27,901 bases of DNA from a virus, in IMG/VR virus record IMGVR_UViG_3300021598_000241, positions 3,861-31,761 of that record; one strand, given 5' to 3'. The position numbers and the translations under genes were made by a program. Below the pieces are notes generated by a model that did no database searches, was not told the DNA's origin, and worked only from the letters and a program-made list of their open reading frames with translations. Positions within the stretch are counted from its first letter, which is position 1. Each line of letters opens with the position of its first letter. Positions 8,359 through 25,799 of the stretch are shown here, one piece after another.

Positions 8359-9387
8359 ATGCGTAAGATGGCAACTTTGCGTCGAATTGACGCTGTCAAT
8401 CCTATCCCAGATGCTGACGCTATTGAAGTGGCGTCTGTAGGCGGCTGGCGTGTGGTTACTAAAAAGGGCGAGTTCGCTCCTGGTGACTTGGCCATCTACT
8501 GCGAAATTGACTCTTGGATTCCTCACGAGTTGGCTCCATTCCTATCTAAGGGCACTGAGCCTCGTGAATACGGCGGAGTTAAAGGCGAGCGTCTACGAAC
8601 TGTTAAACTGCGTGGTCAAGTATCGCAAGGTTTACTGTTGCCGCTGGGCATTGGTGTGTATGACGTTAATGCTGATCTAGGTGAAGGCTCAGATGTTTCT
8701 GAACGCCTAAACATTCAGAAATGGGAAGCTCCTATTCCGGCTCAGTTGGCAGGTGAAGTGCGTGGCGTGTTTCCAGGCTTTATCCCCAAGACGGATCAAG
8801 AGCGTATCCAGAACCTTACTGCTGAATTTGCTGACTGGACTGAGCGTAAGCTACACTGGGAAGTGACTGAGAAGTTGGACGGTTCGTCAATGACTGTTTA
8901 TGTGTTTGACGAAGACGAAGGTGTTTGCTCACGCAACCTAAACCTGCGTGAAACACCAGGCAACTCACTGTGGACTGTGGCACGGCGCAATGACTTGATT
9001 GGCAAGATCCGTTCTACTGGACAGAACCTTGCGTTTCAAGGCGAGCTGATTGGTGAAGGCATCCAAGGTAACCCTTACAAGATCAAGGGCCAAGAGTTCT
9101 ACCTCTTTGACATCTATGACATTGGTGCAGGCCGTTACTTGCTTCCGCTTGAAAGGCAGGCCCTTGCGGCTCGTCTGCGAGTGCTGTGTGTTCCAACGGT
9201 CGCGGCTCATGCTAACCCCTACGATACTTTGGGCATTGCAGACATTGCTCAAATGTTAAAGTTTGCAGAAGGCAAGTCGACACTGATGAACACTACTGAA
9301 CGCGAAGGATTGGTGTTCAAGGGTCACGAAGAGGCTGTATCGTTCAAAGCTATTTCAAACAAGTTTCTACTCAAAGGTGGCAACTAA
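8359..9387 (+). CDS. RNA ligase, DRB0094/Rnl5-like family
   Basis: 342 aa. ATP-dependent RNA ligases seal nicked RNA through a lysyl-AMP intermediate; in phages they typically repair tRNAs cut by host defences. The nucleotidyltransferase core is visible: motif I EKLDGSS with the adenylated lysine K172, motif III region LAFQGELIGEG, motif IV REGLVFKG (315-322), and motif V SFKAISNKFLLK (K330, K335). The N-terminal part (MATLRRIDAVNPIPDADAIE, RTVKLRGQVSQGLLLPL) is the OB-fold-like region typical of the DRB0094 family rather than T4 Rnl1. AAGGA precedes the ATG at 8359; a second in-frame ATG at 8368 is possible. First gene of an operon ending at 10378. The tRNA genes at 22258-22505 are possible partners, by inference. 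Confidence 0.92.
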   Translation: MRKMATLRRIDAVNPIPDADAIEVASVGGWRVVTKKGEFAPGDLAIYCEIDSWIPHELAPFLSKGTEPREYGGVKGERLRTVKLRGQVSQGLLLPLGIGVYDVNADLGEGSDVSERLNIQKWEAPIPAQLAGEVRGVFPGFIPKTDQERIQNLTAEFADWTERKLHWEVTEKLDGSSMTVYVFDEDEGVCSRNLNLRETPGNSLWTVARRNDLIGKIRSTGQNLAFQGELIGEGIQGNPYKIKGQEFYLFDIYDIGAGRYLLPLERQALAARLRVLCVPTVAAHANPYDTLGIADIAQMLKFAEGKSTLMNTTEREGLVFKGHEEAVSFKAISNKFLLKGGN

Positions 9388-18458: not shown

Positions 18459-18552
18459 TGTGGATAAGCTGTGGATAAGCTGTGGATAACTTTGGCCCGT
18501 GCTTGTGGATAAGCTGTGGATAACTTTGACATTGTGGATAACCTGTGGATAA
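18459..18552 (-). other. Array of seven DnaA boxes (TTATCCACA): candidate origin or DnaA-binding locus
   Basis: TGTGGATAA (the complement of the consensus DnaA box TTATCCACA) occurs at 18459, 18470, 18481, 18504, 18515, 18533 and 18544, all in one orientation. Start-to-start distances are 11, 11, 23, 11, 18 and 11 bp, so boxes lie on nearly the same helix face. In bacteria and plasmids such arrays bind the host initiator DnaA. A T-rich tract (18420-18442) next to it could be an unwinding element. Either a replication origin or a site that titrates DnaA is possible. Confidence 0.8.
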
Positions 18553-18606
18553 CCTGGGGTCTCGCGCCTGCCCCTGTTCGTTCGGATTCGGTCCTAAACC
18601 GCCGCC

Positions 18607-18793: not shown

Positions 18794-18819
18794 TAACACT
18801 TCGGAACAAAGGAAACACA

Positions 18820-19080
18820 ATGCAAGCACTACGCAAAAGCCCAATCAAATTTACATTTAATAATGTACAGTATAAGGTCCCTGTTAATAACTTTGTCCCC
18901 GCAAAAGGTTATGTTAATGTGTTAGCTATTAGTCCTAGTATAGTAGACGAAAATACAGATAACCCTGCTATTAGAATATTTGTACAATGTAATAAAAACA
19001 GCCAACAAAATGGTCGTCAATATGCTTTGTTTTATAATATTAATAAACGTCAATTTGACGGACATTTTACAGTAAACTAA
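18820..19080 (+). CDS. Hypothetical protein, 86 aa
   Basis: MQALRKSPIKFTFNNVQYKV, NVLAISPSIVDENTDNPAIR, QYALFYNINKRQFDGHFTVN: an all-beta pattern. AAAGGAA ribosome-binding site. Its codons are clearly more AT-rich than those of its neighbours, suggesting separate origin. A single-gene cassette. Function unknown. Confidence 0.75.
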   Translation: MQALRKSPIKFTFNNVQYKVPVNNFVPAKGYVNVLAISPSIVDENTDNPAIRIFVQCNKNSQQNGRQYALFYNINKRQFDGHFTVN

Positions 19081-19746: not shown

Positions 19747-19778
19747 ATTAACACTGAAACATTAAGAGGGCAATCAAA

Positions 19779-20117
19779 ATGCGTGAATTCAACAGTATGC
19801 AGGACTTGGCAGACGAAGTGCAGGATCTCGTAGAACGCCAGGTGCAGGGGATGCGCTGGGTTAGTGCTAGCGAGTTAGGCCTGGACAATCGTTGTGGTCG
19901 TGCTTATGTAGACGAGAACATGGACTGTATCGTTGTTGACTCAGACCGTGCTCGCAGTTATAACTATTACGGTGGCTTCGAATACATCGACGCTGAGGAT
20001 ATCCGTACACTGGGAGACTATGTGATCTACTTGGACACCTCGGATCGTGTGCGGGACGCACTAGAGGCTCTTATGGAGCGGGATGGTGTTTGCGAATCGG
20101 AGAAAGAAGATGCTTAA
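19779..20117 (+). CDS. Acidic hypothetical protein, 112 aa
   Basis: MREFNSMQDLADEVQDLVER, RWVSASELGLDNRCGRAYVD, YYGGFEYIDAEDIRTLGDYV and an acidic end. Strong AAGAGGGCA ribosome-binding site, which matches the complement of the GTGCCCTC loops at 24690 and 24772. First gene of a short operon. Function unknown. Confidence 0.78.
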   Translation: MREFNSMQDLADEVQDLVERQVQGMRWVSASELGLDNRCGRAYVDENMDCIVVDSDRARSYNYYGGFEYIDAEDIRTLGDYVIYLDTSDRVRDALEALMERDGVCESEKEDA

Positions 20118-20728: not shown

Positions 20729-20739
20729 GAGAGGGCACA

Positions 20740-20994
20740 ATGGCTAAATCCGCACAGCAGAAGTTCAACGAATACATGGACGAATGTCGCGAGACAGGGG
20801 ACTCCGTGAATCAATTGGTAGACCGTAGCTTTGATGCGAATGGTTCTTATGCGTATGCCGCAGGCTTCCTGGGGTCTATTCTAAAAGAAGTGATCGCAGA
20901 GCTGCCCAAACAGCGCCGGGCGGACTACCGCAACAGGCTCTACAGGCAAGCGCAAGAGTTTAAAAACAAAATGGTTGACAAAGTCACAGTTTGA
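20740..20994 (+). CDS. Hypothetical helical protein, 84 aa
   Basis: MAKSAQQKFNEYMDECRETG, YAYAAGFLGSILKEVIAELP, KQRRADYRNRLYRQAQEFKN. Almost entirely helical, basic towards the end. The ribosome-binding site GAGGGCAC is the exact complement of the GTGCCCTC loops at 24690 and 24772. Its last codons contain the -35 box of the next promoter. Function unknown. Confidence 0.78.
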   Translation: MAKSAQQKFNEYMDECRETGDSVNQLVDRSFDANGSYAYAAGFLGSILKEVIAELPKQRRADYRNRLYRQAQEFKNKMVDKVTV

Positions 20995-21203: not shown

Positions 21204-21235
21204 AAACACTTAAACACATTAAGAGGGCAATCTAA

Positions 21236-21691
21236 ATGGCAACACGAAGCACAATCGCATTGGAATTCGCAGACGGCACAGTCCAGCAGGTCTACTGCCA
21301 CTGGGACGGCTACTTGGATCACAACGGTAAGATCCTGCAGGAGCACTATGCAGACCCGTTCAAACTGCGTGACTTGATCGACTTGGGCGACATTAGTTCA
21401 CTCAAGCCTACTGTGGGCACCAAGCACGCCTTTAGTCAGTTTGAAGTTCCAATGGACGGCGAAGCCTACGACAAGCTCTACGGCAACATGACTACCTTCT
21501 ACGGACGCGATCGCGGCGAAACAGGCGTGGGTCCTAAGAGCTTCAAAGACTATGCGGACTATGTAGAGAACTTCCAGCACGAGGAATATGCTTACATTCT
21601 GCGTACGGACGGTGTTTGGTATGTCAAGTGCCACTCAGCGGACTTTGTGACATTGGCGGAAGCCTTTGAAGCAGAGAAGGAAACGGCATAA
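21236..21691 (+). CDS. Conserved phage/plasmid hypothetical protein, 151 aa
   Basis: Opens MATRSTIALEFADGTVQQVY followed by CHWDGYLDHNGKILQEHY, a pattern I recall from many phage and plasmid early regions ('MATRSTIA...DG....YCHWDGY...NG..L...Y'). It then has DLGDISSLKPTVGTKHAF and AYILRTDGVWYVKCHSADFV. No function is known to me; the conserved Cys/His/Trp/Asp block could be an active or binding site. AAGAGGGCA ribosome-binding site. Confidence 0.85.
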   Translation: MATRSTIALEFADGTVQQVYCHWDGYLDHNGKILQEHYADPFKLRDLIDLGDISSLKPTVGTKHAFSQFEVPMDGEAYDKLYGNMTTFYGRDRGETGVGPKSFKDYADYVENFQHEEYAYILRTDGVWYVKCHSADFVTLAEAFEAEKETA

Positions 21692-21810: not shown

Positions 21811-22152
21811 ATGGCAACTTCAAAAACTTATAGCGTAGCAGGCGTTTCAACCCACAAAGGCGTGACCAAGGTCCGTTTTGCAAATGACTTCGTGAATCGT
21901 ATCAAGATTCTGCAGAAGAACGATCACACTGCGATCGAGTTGATCGAGTTGGACACTGAGCTGACTAAAGAAGACATCTGCAAGATGTTGATGGATCACC
22001 CCAAGTTCCAAAACGAAGCCGCTCAAGGCGCGATTGCTGAGTATGTTACTCGCAATGTCAAGGTCGAAGCTCCTAAGGCTAAGACTCCTAAAGCCAAGGC
22101 TCCTAAGGCTACAGCAGTTCAAGTAGAGAACGCAGAACCTGCGTTGATGTAA
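21811..22152 (+). CDS. Hypothetical protein, 113 aa, with Lys/Pro/Ala repeat tail (paralog of the 19171 gene)
   Basis: MATSKTYSVAGVSTHKGVTK, VRFANDFVNRIKILQKNDHT, ELTKEDICKMLMDHPKF. The first half is homologous to the 86-aa protein at 19171. The C-terminus adds a repeat (APKAKTPKAKAPKA), like nucleic-acid-binding tails of histone- or HU-type proteins. An AAAGG ribosome-binding site lies about 9 nt upstream. This extension could tether the protein to DNA or RNA; that is inference. Confidence 0.8.
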   Translation: MATSKTYSVAGVSTHKGVTKVRFANDFVNRIKILQKNDHTAIELIELDTELTKEDICKMLMDHPKFQNEAAQGAIAEYVTRNVKVEAPKAKTPKAKAPKATAVQVENAEPALM

Positions 22153-22257: not shown

Positions 22258-22334
<77 letters not shown>

Positions 22335-22338
22335 TATC

Positions 22339-22423
22339 GCGACTGTGGTGAAATAGGTAGACACAAGAGACTTAAAATCTCTCGCTTTCGGGCGTGCCGG
22401 TTCGATTCCGGCCAGTCGCACCA
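22339..22423 (+). tRNA. tRNA-Leu (TAA)
   Basis: 85 nt, class II with a long variable arm. Acceptor GCGACTG/CAGTCGC is perfect, anticodon stem GAGA/TCTC with loop CTTAAAA (anticodon TAA), T-loop TTCGATT, CCA encoded. It starts 4 nt after the previous tRNA. It reads UUA/UUG codons. Confidence 0.93.
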
Positions 22424-22429
22424 TCCAAT

Positions 22430-22505
22430 CTGCCCGTAGCTCAGTGGATAGAGCAACAGCCTTCTAAGCTGTGGGTCGGAGGTTCGATCCCTCCCGGGCA
22501 GGCCA
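22430..22505 (+). tRNA. tRNA-Arg (TCT)
   Basis: 76 nt. Acceptor CTGCCCG/CGGGCAG is perfect, with TAGCTC at positions 8-13; anticodon stem CAGCC..../GCTG with loop around TTCTAA, anticodon TCT; T-arm GGAGG-TTCGATC-CCTCC; discriminator G and encoded CCA. It reads AGA/AGG, codons often rare in hosts but common in phages. Confidence 0.93.
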
Positions 22506-23357: not shown

Positions 23358-23575
23358 TGGCTAGTATCATCGACAACCCAATCCCACGCAACGGTCTGTT
23401 CGCTACACCCGAGAGCGCAGAAGCCTTCGCAGAGTATCTGATGCAGTTCTCAGGAGCAGAGCGCACGGTGGCCTTCACTGTGGCACAGATGGCGTTCAAC
23501 CTAGCACATCAGCTGGTGCAGAACGAGATTGAGGCTTGGCCAAAGGTTGAATCTTTTGGCTATCACGGGGCTTGA
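23357..23575 (+). CDS. Hypothetical protein, 72 aa
   Basis: MASIIDNPIPRNGLFATPES, AEAFAEYLMQFSGAERTVAF, TVAQMAFNLAHQLVQNEIEA: helical, mildly acidic. The start overlaps the previous stop, and its own TGA is part of the next promoter's TTGACA. Function unknown. Confidence 0.75.
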   Translation: MASIIDNPIPRNGLFATPESAEAFAEYLMQFSGAERTVAFTVAQMAFNLAHQLVQNEIEAWPKVESFGYHGA

Positions 23576-23600
23576 CAGCAAGGGCAATTGCTGTTATAAT
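23572..23600 (+). promoter_or_regulatory. Sigma-70 promoter (AAA+ gene)
   Basis: TTGACA at 23572, 17-bp spacer, TATAAT at 23595; contains the stop codon of the preceding gene. Confidence 0.88.
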
Positions 23601-23636
23601 TAATGCTTGTAAACGTTAACTAAGAGGGATTTTTAC

Positions 23637-24650
23637 ATGGGCAAGAACATTCGTATTTTAAATGGCAGTTACAAGATCCGCGGCAAAGATGTAGATCTTG
23701 CAGGTATGGTATTTCCACTAGTAGAAGGCTTCAAGGTGGGTGCTAAGGGCGGGTACGTAACCGTTGATGGTAAGTCAGTAGCAGGGTTCCCAGATCGTAA
23801 TATTAAGATTGCATGCGACAGCGAGGATGCATACGAAGACGCAGGCGCGGCTCGTGTGACCAAGCGTGAAGAGTCAGATGAAGATGTGATCGAACGCATG
23901 CGTGAGCGTTTCCAGATGCTGGAAGACATGACGCGAGCATGCAAGAAGGGTTCTGTGCGAGCAATGATTGTATCAGGACCCCCAGGCGTTGGCAAGAGCT
24001 TTGGTGTTGAGAAGGTCTTGGGCAAGCACGATCTGTTGGCAGACATTGCTAACGATCAGAAGCTCAAGAAGTACGAAGTGGTCAAGGGTGCAATGAGTGC
24101 AATCGGTCTCTATTGCAAGCTGTTCCAATACGCAGACAAAGACTGTGTGATTGTGTTCGATGACTGTGATAGTGTACTCCTGGACGACCTGAGCTTGAAC
24201 ATCTTGAAGGCTGCGCTAGACTCTAAGAAGAATAGACGCATCTGCTGGAACACTGACAGCTTCAAGTTGAAGAACGAAGGCGTGCCAGACAGCTTCGAGT
24301 TCAAAGGCAGTGCGATCTTTATTACCAACATCAAGTTCGATAACGTTAAGAGCAAGAAGCTGCGTGATCACCTTGAGGCATTGGAGAGTCGTTGCCACTA
24401 CATTGACTTGACCATTGACAGCGAGCGTGATAAGATCCTGCGCATCAAGCAGATCACCAAAGATGGTATGTTGGATACCTATGAGTTTGAAGATGGCATG
24501 AGTGATGACATCTTAGAGTTTATTGAAACAAACAAGAAGCGACTACGTGAACTGAGCTTGCGCACAGTACTTAAGGTCGCCGATTTAGCCAAAGCATTCC
24601 CCGATCGTTGGGAAGCTATGGCGGAGAACACTGTGATGAAACGTGGCTAG
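23637..24650 (+). CDS. AAA+ family ATPase, 337 aa
   Basis: Walker A GPPGVGKS (residues 114-121), Walker B VIVFDDCD (171-178), a sensor-1-type Asn in AIFITN (N231) and an Arg in LESRCHYIDL (R252) that may act in trans. The N-terminal 100 residues (MGKNIRILNGSYKIRGKDVD, GFKVGAKGGYVTVDGKSV) form a phage-specific domain. The architecture matches stand-alone AAA+ ATPases frequent in phage early regions. Roles in remodelling replication or host complexes are possible; the substrate is not evident. AAGAGGG lies 9 nt before the ATG. It is monocistronic and followed by three hairpins ending in a strong terminator. Confidence 0.9.
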   Translation: MGKNIRILNGSYKIRGKDVDLAGMVFPLVEGFKVGAKGGYVTVDGKSVAGFPDRNIKIACDSEDAYEDAGAARVTKREESDEDVIERMRERFQMLEDMTRACKKGSVRAMIVSGPPGVGKSFGVEKVLGKHDLLADIANDQKLKKYEVVKGAMSAIGLYCKLFQYADKDCVIVFDDCDSVLLDDLSLNILKAALDSKKNRRICWNTDSFKLKNEGVPDSFEFKGSAIFITNIKFDNVKSKKLRDHLEALESRCHYIDLTIDSERDKILRIKQITKDGMLDTYEFEDGMSDDILEFIETNKKRLRELSLRTVLKVADLAKAFPDRWEAMAENTVMKRG

Positions 24651-24676
24651 CCCCTCTATGCCACGCACAGTGAATG

Positions 24677-24708
24677 ACAGTACTCCTCGGTGCCCTCCGA
24701 GATACTGT
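24677..24708 (+). ncRNA. 3'-region hairpin 1 with GTGCCCTC loop
   Basis: ACAGTA (24677-24682) pairs with TACTGT (24703-24708), and CTCGG with CCGAG inside, leaving a TGCCCT loop. First of three hairpins between the AAA+ stop and the terminator. Together (24677-24799) they could form a stable 3'-derived small RNA. No separate promoter is visible. Confidence 0.45.
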
Positions 24709-24711
24709 TTG

Positions 24712-24751
24712 GGAAGCAGGCAGCTCTCTTAGCCCTTAACGCTCTGCTTCC
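24712..24751 (+). ncRNA. 3'-region hairpin 2
   Basis: GGAAGCAG pairs with CTGCTTCC (8 bp) around a 24-nt loop. Lies between hairpin 1 and the terminator. Confidence 0.4.
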
Positions 24752-24760
24752 TTTGTTGGA

Positions 24761-24799
24761 CCCCTAGGATTGTGCCCTCGATCCTAGGGGGTTTTTTTT
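24761..24799 (+). terminator. Strong rho-independent terminator with GTGCCCTC loop
   Basis: CCCCTAGGAT-N10-ATCCTAGGGG: a perfect 10-bp stem followed by G and eight Ts. The 10-nt loop TGTGCCCTCG contains GTGCCCTC, the same 8-mer as in hairpin 1. Confidence 0.95.
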
Positions 24800-24863: not shown

Positions 24864-24893
24864 AACTACATACAAACACAAAGAGGGCTCAAA

Positions 24894-25136
24894 ATGCAAA
24901 CTGCTTTTAATACACTTGCTCGCGCAAAACTAGTTAAAATTAAAAAAACGGGCTTATTTAAATTTGTTGCCGCTTTTAATGTTACTCGCAGAAGCGAGGT
25001 AACAGGCAAGTATATATTCCCCTCTGAGGCAAAATGCGATTTTGTAAGCGGGCATATCTCTGTTACAGATCTCCCTCGCATAATGCAAGATGCCGTTGCC
25101 GTGTTAAGAACTAATCGCATTGAGCTAGAGGGCTAA
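24894..25136 (+). CDS. Hypothetical protein, 80 aa
   Basis: MQTAFNTLARAKLVKIKKTG, LFKFVAAFNVTRRSEVTGKY, DLPRIMQDAVAVLRTNRIEL. A basic beta-rich first half and a C-terminal helix; layout and the start MQT are like the 76-aa protein at 26386. Codons are AT-rich relative to neighbours. AAGAGGGC ribosome-binding site. DnaA-box sequences follow 1 bp after the stop. Function unknown. Confidence 0.75.
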   Translation: MQTAFNTLARAKLVKIKKTGLFKFVAAFNVTRRSEVTGKYIFPSEAKCDFVSGHISVTDLPRIMQDAVAVLRTNRIELEG

Positions 25137-25137
25137 G

Positions 25138-25172
25138 TTATCCACAGGTTATCCACAGGGGGCTGTGGATAA
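25138..25172. repeat. Three DnaA boxes, forming a perfect inverted repeat
   Basis: TTATCCACA at 25138 and 25149 (again 11 bp apart) and TGTGGATAA at 25164. GTTATCCACAG-GGGG-CTGTGGATAAC is a perfect 11-bp inverted repeat (25148-25173), so as RNA it would fold into a strong hairpin. It could be a second DnaA-binding site or end the upstream transcript. Confidence 0.75.
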
Positions 25173-25191
25173 CTATTTGGCAAAAAAGAGG

Positions 25192-25220: not shown

Positions 25221-25253
25221 AGATACATAGGGTAAACAAACGAGGGCAAAACG

Positions 25254-25799
25254 ATGTTCAAACTATTAAGTACCGCAAATCCAAAGATCCAAAAGGGCAC
25301 CAAATATGGCTATCTATCTTTCATCCTACACTTGGCACCCGCAGACCTTAGTGGACGTGAAGTCTGCCCTAAACGGACTGCCGGTTGTACCCAGGCTTGT
25401 CTTAACACCGCAGGGCGCGGTGGTATGTTCCGCAAAGGCGAGAACACCAATGTCATCCAGCAGGCTCGCATCCGCAAGACTAAGATGTACTTTGAGCAAC
25501 GGGAAGAGTTCCTTGACGCCCTGCGCAAAGACATCAAGCTGGGCATCAAGCAGGCAGCTCGTTTGGGTTTGACGCCCGTGTTCCGCTTGAATGGTACTAG
25601 CGACTTGGCTTGGGAAAAGACAGGCATTTTTGATGAGTTCCCTAGTGTACAATTTTACGACTACACCAAAGTCCTGGGTCGTAAGGTTGCTGGCATTAAG
25701 AACCCTAAGAACGTGATTGCAGGACTTAAGGCCAAGGGTCGTGCTAAAAAGGACACTACAGGTTTCGTTCGTAAGACTATCATGATGGAGGTTGCATAA
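25254..25799 (+). CDS. Phage gp88-like protein, internally shortened, 181 aa
   Basis: Matches the 'gene product 88' family by LSTANPKIQKGTKYGYLSFI, LHLAPADLSGREVCPKRTAG, CTQACLNTAGRGGMF, FRLNGTSDLAW and VQFYDYTKVLGRK, then NVIAGLKAKGRAKKDTTGFV. From memory, full members have another 50-100 residues between 'YDYTK...R' and '...GLKAKG' (including a 'NYHLTFS' segment). Here the two blocks are joined directly (about residues 144-152), with both ends intact, so an in-frame internal deletion is likely. Conserved cysteines C38, C45 and C49 remain. Function of the family unknown. GAGGGCA ribosome-binding site. Confidence 0.85.
   Translation: MFKLLSTANPKIQKGTKYGYLSFILHLAPADLSGREVCPKRTAGCTQACLNTAGRGGMFRKGENTNVIQQARIRKTKMYFEQREEFLDALRKDIKLGIKQAARLGLTPVFRLNGTSDLAWEKTGIFDEFPSVQFYDYTKVLGRKVAGIKNPKNVIAGLKAKGRAKKDTTGFVRKTIMMEVA

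Follow-up and report, generated by a model that had tools for sequence, protein, structure and literature searches.

A predicted multi-loop anti-Shine-Dalgarno RNA in the 3'UTR of an AAA+ ATPase gene of aquatic T4-like phages

The window, by which we mean the whole stretch of 27,901 nucleotides analysed here, is part of a 31.8-kb IMG/VR virus record, and it raises the question of why an AAA+ ATPase gene should end in hairpins whose loops mirror the ribosome-binding sites of neighbouring genes. A preliminary description had proposed a 3' small RNA repressing the translation of many early genes at once. Comparison with related sequences supports this interpretation: the AAA+ 3'UTR probably gives rise to a multi-loop anti-Shine-Dalgarno (anti-SD) RNA, which would shut off a tagged, probably early, set of phage genes.

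The AAA+ 3'UTR and the tagged genes of the window

The locus comprises the following features.

23572..23600, + strand: sigma70-type consensus promoter of the AAA+ gene (TTGACA-17-TATAAT, 12/12)
23624..23628, + strand: GAGGG ribosome-binding site of the AAA+ gene 23637
23637..24650, + strand: AAA+ ATPase gene, homologue of T4 nrdC.10 (Pfam AAA_16/AAA, phrog_1250, tblastn matches annotated nrdC.10)
24651..24799, + strand: predicted RNA within the 3'UTR of the AAA+ gene, with three hairpins and an intrinsic terminator
24676..24709, + strand: hairpin 1, loop UGCCCU at 24691-24696, inside GTGCCCTC at 24690-24697
24711..24751, + strand: hairpin 2, an altered copy of the AGCCCUCAC loop of relatives
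24761..24799, + strand: hairpin 3, the terminator, loop UGCCCU at 24773-24778, inside GTGCCCTC at 24772-24779, then T8

The three hairpins reported between the AAA+ gene and its terminator were borne out by both sequence and fold, the 191-nt stretch giving a fold z of -3.5 with an equally good fold in 0 of 200 shuffles. The stem-loop of hairpin 3 spans 24761-24790, is followed by T8 at 24792-24799 and is present as a terminator call in the prediction list, while the only strong promoter of the RNA is that of the AAA+ gene itself (23572..23600, + strand). An 8-mer common to loops 1 and 3 had also been claimed; GTGCCCTC is indeed located at both tips, but in the predicted fold the loop proper is only the 6-nt UGCCCU, while the first and last bases of the 8-mer, G and C, form the closing pair. 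Concerning hairpin 2, it does not contain GCCCTC in the window and reads AGCCCTTAAC, its counterpart loop being AGCCCTCAC in many relatives. Its GCUCUCUU is complementary to AAGAGAGC before gene 26678, which could be a chance match. Ten bases in the leader of 18820 are complementary to the UUCCUUUGUU that follows; this leader (18800-18820, AACAAAGGAA) pairs with the stem end of hairpin 2 and the linker (24750-24759, TTCCTTTGTT), and this ten-base match may likewise be due to chance.

An Rfam search of the window returned three tRNAs and nothing else. For five loci of this RNA no score came near threshold and no family reached its curated score, and the c4-type antisense RNA model matched neither the window nor these loci. 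No DNA similarity of the window to cultured phages was detected. The window additionally bears a tRNA-Met(CAT), tRNA-Leu(TAA) and tRNA-Arg(TCT) cluster at 22258-22505, an RNA ligase gene (phrog_968) at 8359-9387 and, at 18460-18560 and 25135-25175, intergenic runs of TTATCCACA/TGTGGATAA words, which resemble what we take to be the DnaA box consensus.

Apart from the AAA+ gene, the sequences complementary to the loops, hereafter tags, are established at these positions.

19766..19772, + strand: tag GAGGGCA before gene 19779-20117, 7-nt complement to the RNA
20731..20738, + strand: tag GAGGGCAC before gene 20740-20994, 8-nt complement to the RNA
21223..21229, + strand: tag GAGGGCA before gene 21236-21691
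24883..24888, + strand: tag GAGGGC before gene 24894-25136
25242..25248, + strand: tag GAGGGCA before gene 25254-25799 (GP88 family)

Five window genes (19779, 20740, 21236, 24894 and 25254) thus have GAGGGC(A) as their ribosome-binding site. The complement of the loop 8-mer had been assigned to the ribosome-binding region of gene 20740, where GAGGGCAC lies exactly at 20731-20738, and the GAGGGCA reported before 19779, 21236 and 25254 was found at 19766, 21223 and 25242; as for the several other genes said to carry GAGGG, we identified GAGGG before 23637 and the longer GAGGGC before 24894. Overall, the window has 11 copies of GAGGGCA where 3.3 are expected, a number that none of 100 shuffles attains; two of these copies are the RNA loops themselves, read on the opposite strand. 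The full GTGCCCTC has 3 copies in the 27.9-kb window (0.78 expected), a number that 4 of 100 shuffles reach, and the loop-tag match from the window alone is therefore suggestive only; because this count is within reach of shuffles, relatives were needed to decide.

The + strand of the window harbors, between 18765 and 27513, eighteen promoters at 11-12/12 of the sigma70 consensus, an unusual density. The leaders of these 18 genes (from 18.7 kb on) carry GAGGGC in five cases, GAGGG in one, GGAGCG in three and other sequences in nine. Duplex energies of the five GAGGGC leaders with the loop octamer range from -12.4 to -16.6 kcal/mol, against -6.3 to -8.8 kcal/mol with what we take to be the 16S anti-SD decamer. 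The three GGAGCG leaders (26386, 26939, 27541) bear the tag of another clade, clade C, and the contig has no matching loop; that of 27541 closely resembles a leader in the clade C contigs L116 and L129, and the three look like imports from clade C phages.

Loops and tags among relatives

An AAA+ protein search led to 80 loci. Clade A consists of thirty-eight loci (L002-L039, with L002 and L003 near-copies of the window), nearly all of which have an RNA of the same kind at the same place, while none was seen there in the inspected 3' regions of clade B (loci with a 60%-identical AAA+ protein). L077 presented a different loop, and a search with it yielded the freshwater clade C (80 loci in all). 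Clade E, with 4 distinct contigs, was reached via a GTDB contig, and group F holds the more distant AAA+ relatives (usable leader in 50 of 53). Near-duplicates were removed before counting (A, 37 to 33; C, 80 to 60; B, 41 to 15; F, 77 to 53), L002 was excluded from the clade A counts, and all members are metagenomic contigs. Host assignment through MAG bins was tried and rejected: clade A and E contigs fell in Neomarinimicrobiota, Flavobacteriaceae, Porticoccaceae and Euryarchaeota bins, which are mutually inconsistent. In the tree, B joins A and only 3 changes of RNA state suffice, so the independent tag switches are few.

The loop motif was found in 31 of the 33 deduplicated clade A 3'UTRs as GCCCTC (61 copies against 1.9 expected), the remaining two being the diverged L034 and L019, whose UTR was cut short and in whose fuller sequence two GTGCCCTC were seen. 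Fifty of these 61 copies are centred in a predicted hairpin loop, with an unpaired probability of 0.81 against 0.42 elsewhere. Clade C 3'UTRs contain TTCGCTCC in 59 of 60 cases (108 copies where 0.1 would be expected, 87 of which fall in hairpin loops; unpaired probability 0.87 against 0.36 elsewhere), the exception, L160, having the variant GAATCGCTCCC instead. For clade E, AACCTCTC is present in the 3'UTR of all 4 distinct contigs. At the RNA level the loop motifs are GUGCCCUCG/GCCCUC in A, AUUCGCUCC in C and AACCUCUC in E; none of the 60 clade C 3'UTRs contains GCCCTC, and none of the 33 of clade A contains TTCGCTCC. A DNA pattern with both loops detected 71 stretches; with a single loop, the matches listed are probably mostly chance.

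Kept stems with changing loops had been named beforehand as the pattern that would speak against such an RNA, and the opposite was found. The loop motif is invariant, stem positions mostly hold 0.0-0.3 bits (somewhat higher beside the loop), and the 12-nt 5' flanks have a mean identity of 29% in A and 44% in C, while the stems still pair: the duplex energy with their own flank is -18.2 against -8.8 kcal/mol with swapped flanks in clade A (42 copies), and -14.1 against -7.1 kcal/mol in clade C (85 copies). A conserved loop on a freely changing paired stem looks like the pattern of selection on the loop. Additionally, no promoter of at least 10/12 was detected from 250 nt before the AAA+ stop codon to the RNA in 33 clade A, 60 clade C and 4 clade E loci; with no separate promoter in these 97 loci, the RNA would arise with the AAA+ mRNA. 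Two traits of a 3'UTR-derived sRNA are present, as it has no promoter of its own and its terminator is common with the gene.

The tags differ together with the loops. Among leaders behind promoters of at least 10/12, clade A has GAGGGC in 157 of 279 and GGAGCG in 1, clade C has GGAGCG in 226 of 435 and GAGGGC in none, and neither occurs in the 58 of clade B; clade E leaders bear AGAGAGGT or AGAGAGG. When the AAA+ strand is scanned, an ORF's ATG follows within 1-12 nt at 163 of the 184 clade A sites with GAGGGCA and at 254 of the 271 clade C sites with GGAGCGA, and 25 of 26 AGAGAGG sites in clade E precede an ATG. Complementary runs of at least 7 between RNA and leader are found for 57% (n=286) in A, 58% (n=428) in C and 67% (n=39) in E within the own clade, against 3-14% when A, C and E are crossed and 8-13% with shuffled leaders; clade B, represented by 6 of its 15 contigs, gave 10-18% for its leaders with the RNAs and 10% with itself. 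All 60 shuffles were beaten in a per-contig 8-mer test in 4 of 33 A, 31 of 60 C and 2 of 4 E contigs, a test that is weak for A, where the loop-tag match is only 6-7 nt with variable flanking bases. GAGG is followed by GC in 137 of 169 clade A leaders and GGAG by CG in 181 of 256 clade C leaders, although bases beyond the SD core contribute nothing to pairing with what we take to be the 16S 3' end. RNA-tag pairing would account for the SD extensions GAGGGCA, GGAGCGAA and AGAGAGGU, which ribosome pairing does not. The tag is present in only about half of promoter-led leaders; outside core and tag the leaders mostly hold <1 bit per position, and within a clade they could be partly copied cassettes.

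Loop-SD covariation among relatives, for which the preliminary description had asked, is present between the three clades and within orthologous genes, which carry the tag that fits the loop of their own clade. Specifically, AAA+ leaders have GAGGGC in 24 of 32 clade A and GGAGCG in 55 of 60 clade C contigs, with neither in the 15 of clade B (AGGGC in 5 of them). For the c1957 family the figures are GGAGCG in 38 of 45 (C) and GAGGGC in 17 of 24 (A); for GP88, GAGGGC in 2 of 2 (A) and GGAGCG in 5 of 5 (C); and for the 21236 family, GAGGGC in 9 of 10 (A) and GGAGC or GGAGCG in 12 of 15 (C). The 21811 family (small protein, 21811-22152 in the window) is a possible exempt gene, as its leaders are untagged in 12 of 20 clade A contigs (plain SD) and in all 29 of clade C, reading AAAGGC or AAGGAAA in A and C alike. 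At the level of sequence, it can be taken as established that loops and leaders are complementary, that this complementarity is conserved and changes along with the tags, and that the motif sits in loops. The sequence traits of a trans-acting anti-SD sRNA were found together, namely accessible conserved bases, complementarity to several SD regions and covariation.

Genomic context, distant relatives and cultured phages

Six clade A and C contigs of 262-383 kb were searched whole. Many tagged starts lie within about 12 kb of the RNA and the remainder are scattered; nine of the 11 in G006 are within 7 kb beside the RNA, and nine of the 19 in G002 within 11 kb, with no cluster of the other clade's tag near the RNA. 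The 20-kb neighbourhood of the RNA in G002 has 25 host-type promoters on a single strand; the other stretches of G002 examined have 4-8 per strand. Clustering of the tagged genes near the RNA, and the lack of a separate promoter for it, are direct readings of sequence. A T4-type gp23 capsid protein is encoded in five of the six, and in the gp23 region of two large contigs the sites are plain AAGGAGA, the capsid gene being untagged. The RegA family (PF01818) was detected in none of the six but in two of the three cultured phages used for comparison, which are Straboviridae. RegB (PF10715) had no match anywhere searched, which says nothing on its absence. The word TATAAATA, which we take to be the T4 late-promoter word, gave no useful pattern.

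Among the 50 group F members with a usable leader, 12 have a 3'UTR run of at least 9 bases complementary to their own AAA+ leader, against 1.4% in shuffled UTRs, and the best 8-mer pairs with at most one leader in nearly all. The pairings are of several unrelated sequences (TTTGCGTGGAAT; ATTGCCTAGT; CTCCCACAG; TCTCACTCC) and extend over 9-13 bases in L455, L468, L471, L473, L475, L476 and L453, the last having a compensatory version, TCGCGTGGG/CCCACGCGA, of the TTTGCGTGGAAT pairing. The match of L441 is A+T-rich and may be chance. These data suggest that the autoregulatory 3'UTR is older and that the regulon-wide tags were added in clades A, C and E.

Concerning cultured phages, every AAA+ match by protein was below 60% identity, and the 1234 records with a match were only sampled, leader and 3' region being compared in ten phages. 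No such RNA was seen in these (PA5oct, Cassandra, LPCS28, ZZ1, VS1, RcRudolph, XaC1, Kaldavass, D508 and T4); PA5oct and Cassandra have a small 3' hairpin that matches their own leader over 8 nt, a level close to chance. The AAA+ protein of PA5oct as an IMG/VR query gave no match.

Proposed mechanism, alternatives and significance

In the mechanism that we propose, a large T4-like phage would make a regulatory RNA from the 3' end of its AAA+ mRNA, with hairpin loops complementary to a barcode in the SD region of neighbouring genes, the AAA+ gene included, which are transcribed from near-identical host-type promoters. As the AAA+ transcript accumulates, the 3' RNA, processed free or still attached, would pair with the barcode, block the 30S subunit and turn the gene set off together. 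Since GAGGG precedes the AAA+ gene (GAGGGC in most clade A orthologues, as given above), the RNA could also feed back on its own gene. From the host-type consensus promoters and the untagged gp23 capsid gene we infer that the targets would be early genes; a stable RNA, a repressive effect and a shut-off timed to early genes are part of the proposal. Pairing of loop and SD that excludes the ribosome is the most likely mode of action by analogy with the similarly built NfeR1.

It is unlikely that the RNA acts on its own mRNA only, with the 3'UTR pairing to the AAA+ 5' leader and the tags of other genes representing copied promoter-leader cassettes. Such autogenous control would agree with group F, where 3'UTRs match at most their own leader, far more often than shuffled ones, through several unrelated sequences and with one compensatory change, and also with same-clade leaders being alike beyond the tag. 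However, in A, C and E the tag precedes many unrelated genes, orthologues bear the one proper to their clade, redundant loops persist in number, and outside core and tag the leaders are mostly of low information. Whether the effect is negative or positive does not follow from pairing as such, and the CCUC or CUCC in the loops could pair with host SD sites; an RNA that protects or activates mRNAs, or that mainly targets host mRNAs or host small RNAs, is nevertheless quite improbable, because the paired bases are the SD core 1-12 nt ahead of the ATG, a stretch that initiation requires to be free, and the tag bases beyond the core fit the phage's own leaders clade by clade. Finally, an ordinary terminator with mRNA-end hairpins that match by chance would suit the good terminator formed by the third hairpin and the count of GTGCCCTC in the window, which alone is not far beyond chance. 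This explanation is extremely improbable and already contradicted, as loops and not stems are kept in 93 deduplicated loci, loop and tag change together, and a fixed 6-9 nt loop is unnecessary for a terminator.

The preferred reading, a multi-loop RNA directed at tagged phage genes, belongs to a kind already known in bacteria, the multi-hairpin anti-SD RNA. The ar14/'cuckoo' sRNA NfeR1 of Sinorhizobium is described as having three hairpins with the same unpaired anti-SD motif in each and highly different stems, its redundant motifs silencing translation by pairing at the initiation region (PMC10746234). The preliminary description had named repeated C-rich loops against SD sequences as a known bacterial sRNA design. 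The architecture is shared, several hairpins having one anti-SD loop motif on divergent stems (in the window, two of three hairpins), but ar14/cuckoo RNAs are bacterial stress sRNAs with the fixed motif CCUCCUCCC, not found here, whereas the present RNA is phage-borne, lies in an AAA+ 3'UTR and has clade-specific motifs matching a barcode in the phage's own leaders. Listeria LhrC, Staphylococcus RsaE and Helicobacter RepG also direct C-rich unpaired motifs at the G-rich initiation regions of multiple targets; these are bacterial, and their motifs have no link to a self-written barcode. The c4 antisense RNA of P1/P7, whose complementary bases are probably in loops, pairs at a phage ribosome-binding site (PMC12197685). 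Unlike c4, which has one target mRNA, the RNA described here has many predicted targets, repeated loops and changing motifs. As far as searched, its phage origin, the self-written barcode on a gene set, the clade-wise co-difference of loop and tag and the apparent growth from autoregulation are new, and no report of this RNA was found in the open-licence PMC literature.

In T4, about 30 mRNAs are subject to competition between RegA and the ribosome, and RegB cuts GGAG sites, mostly in early-gene initiation regions (PMC3014915). The predicted RNA would similarly target the ribosome-binding regions of many early mRNAs, although RegA and RegB are proteins. A wider scenario, which we put forward tentatively and hold to be possible rather than probable, is that aquatic T4-like phages carry a private SD barcode on their early set and an RNA reading it at the end of that set, a self-regulating 3'UTR having grown into a switch for a whole regulon, and at least three clades each having a barcode of their own. 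With so little cross-matching of barcodes from clade to clade, superinfection exclusion is a further possibility: the RNA could silence an incoming phage whose barcode is the same, a pressure under which barcodes would diverge. If the preferred reading is right, the RNA would be a counterpart of the T4 protein control of early translation, set in widespread aquatic phages of lakes and seas with large genomes and no RegA detected. It would also be a case of visible joint change in a small RNA and the genes it targets, which allows the target set to be read straight from the sequence.
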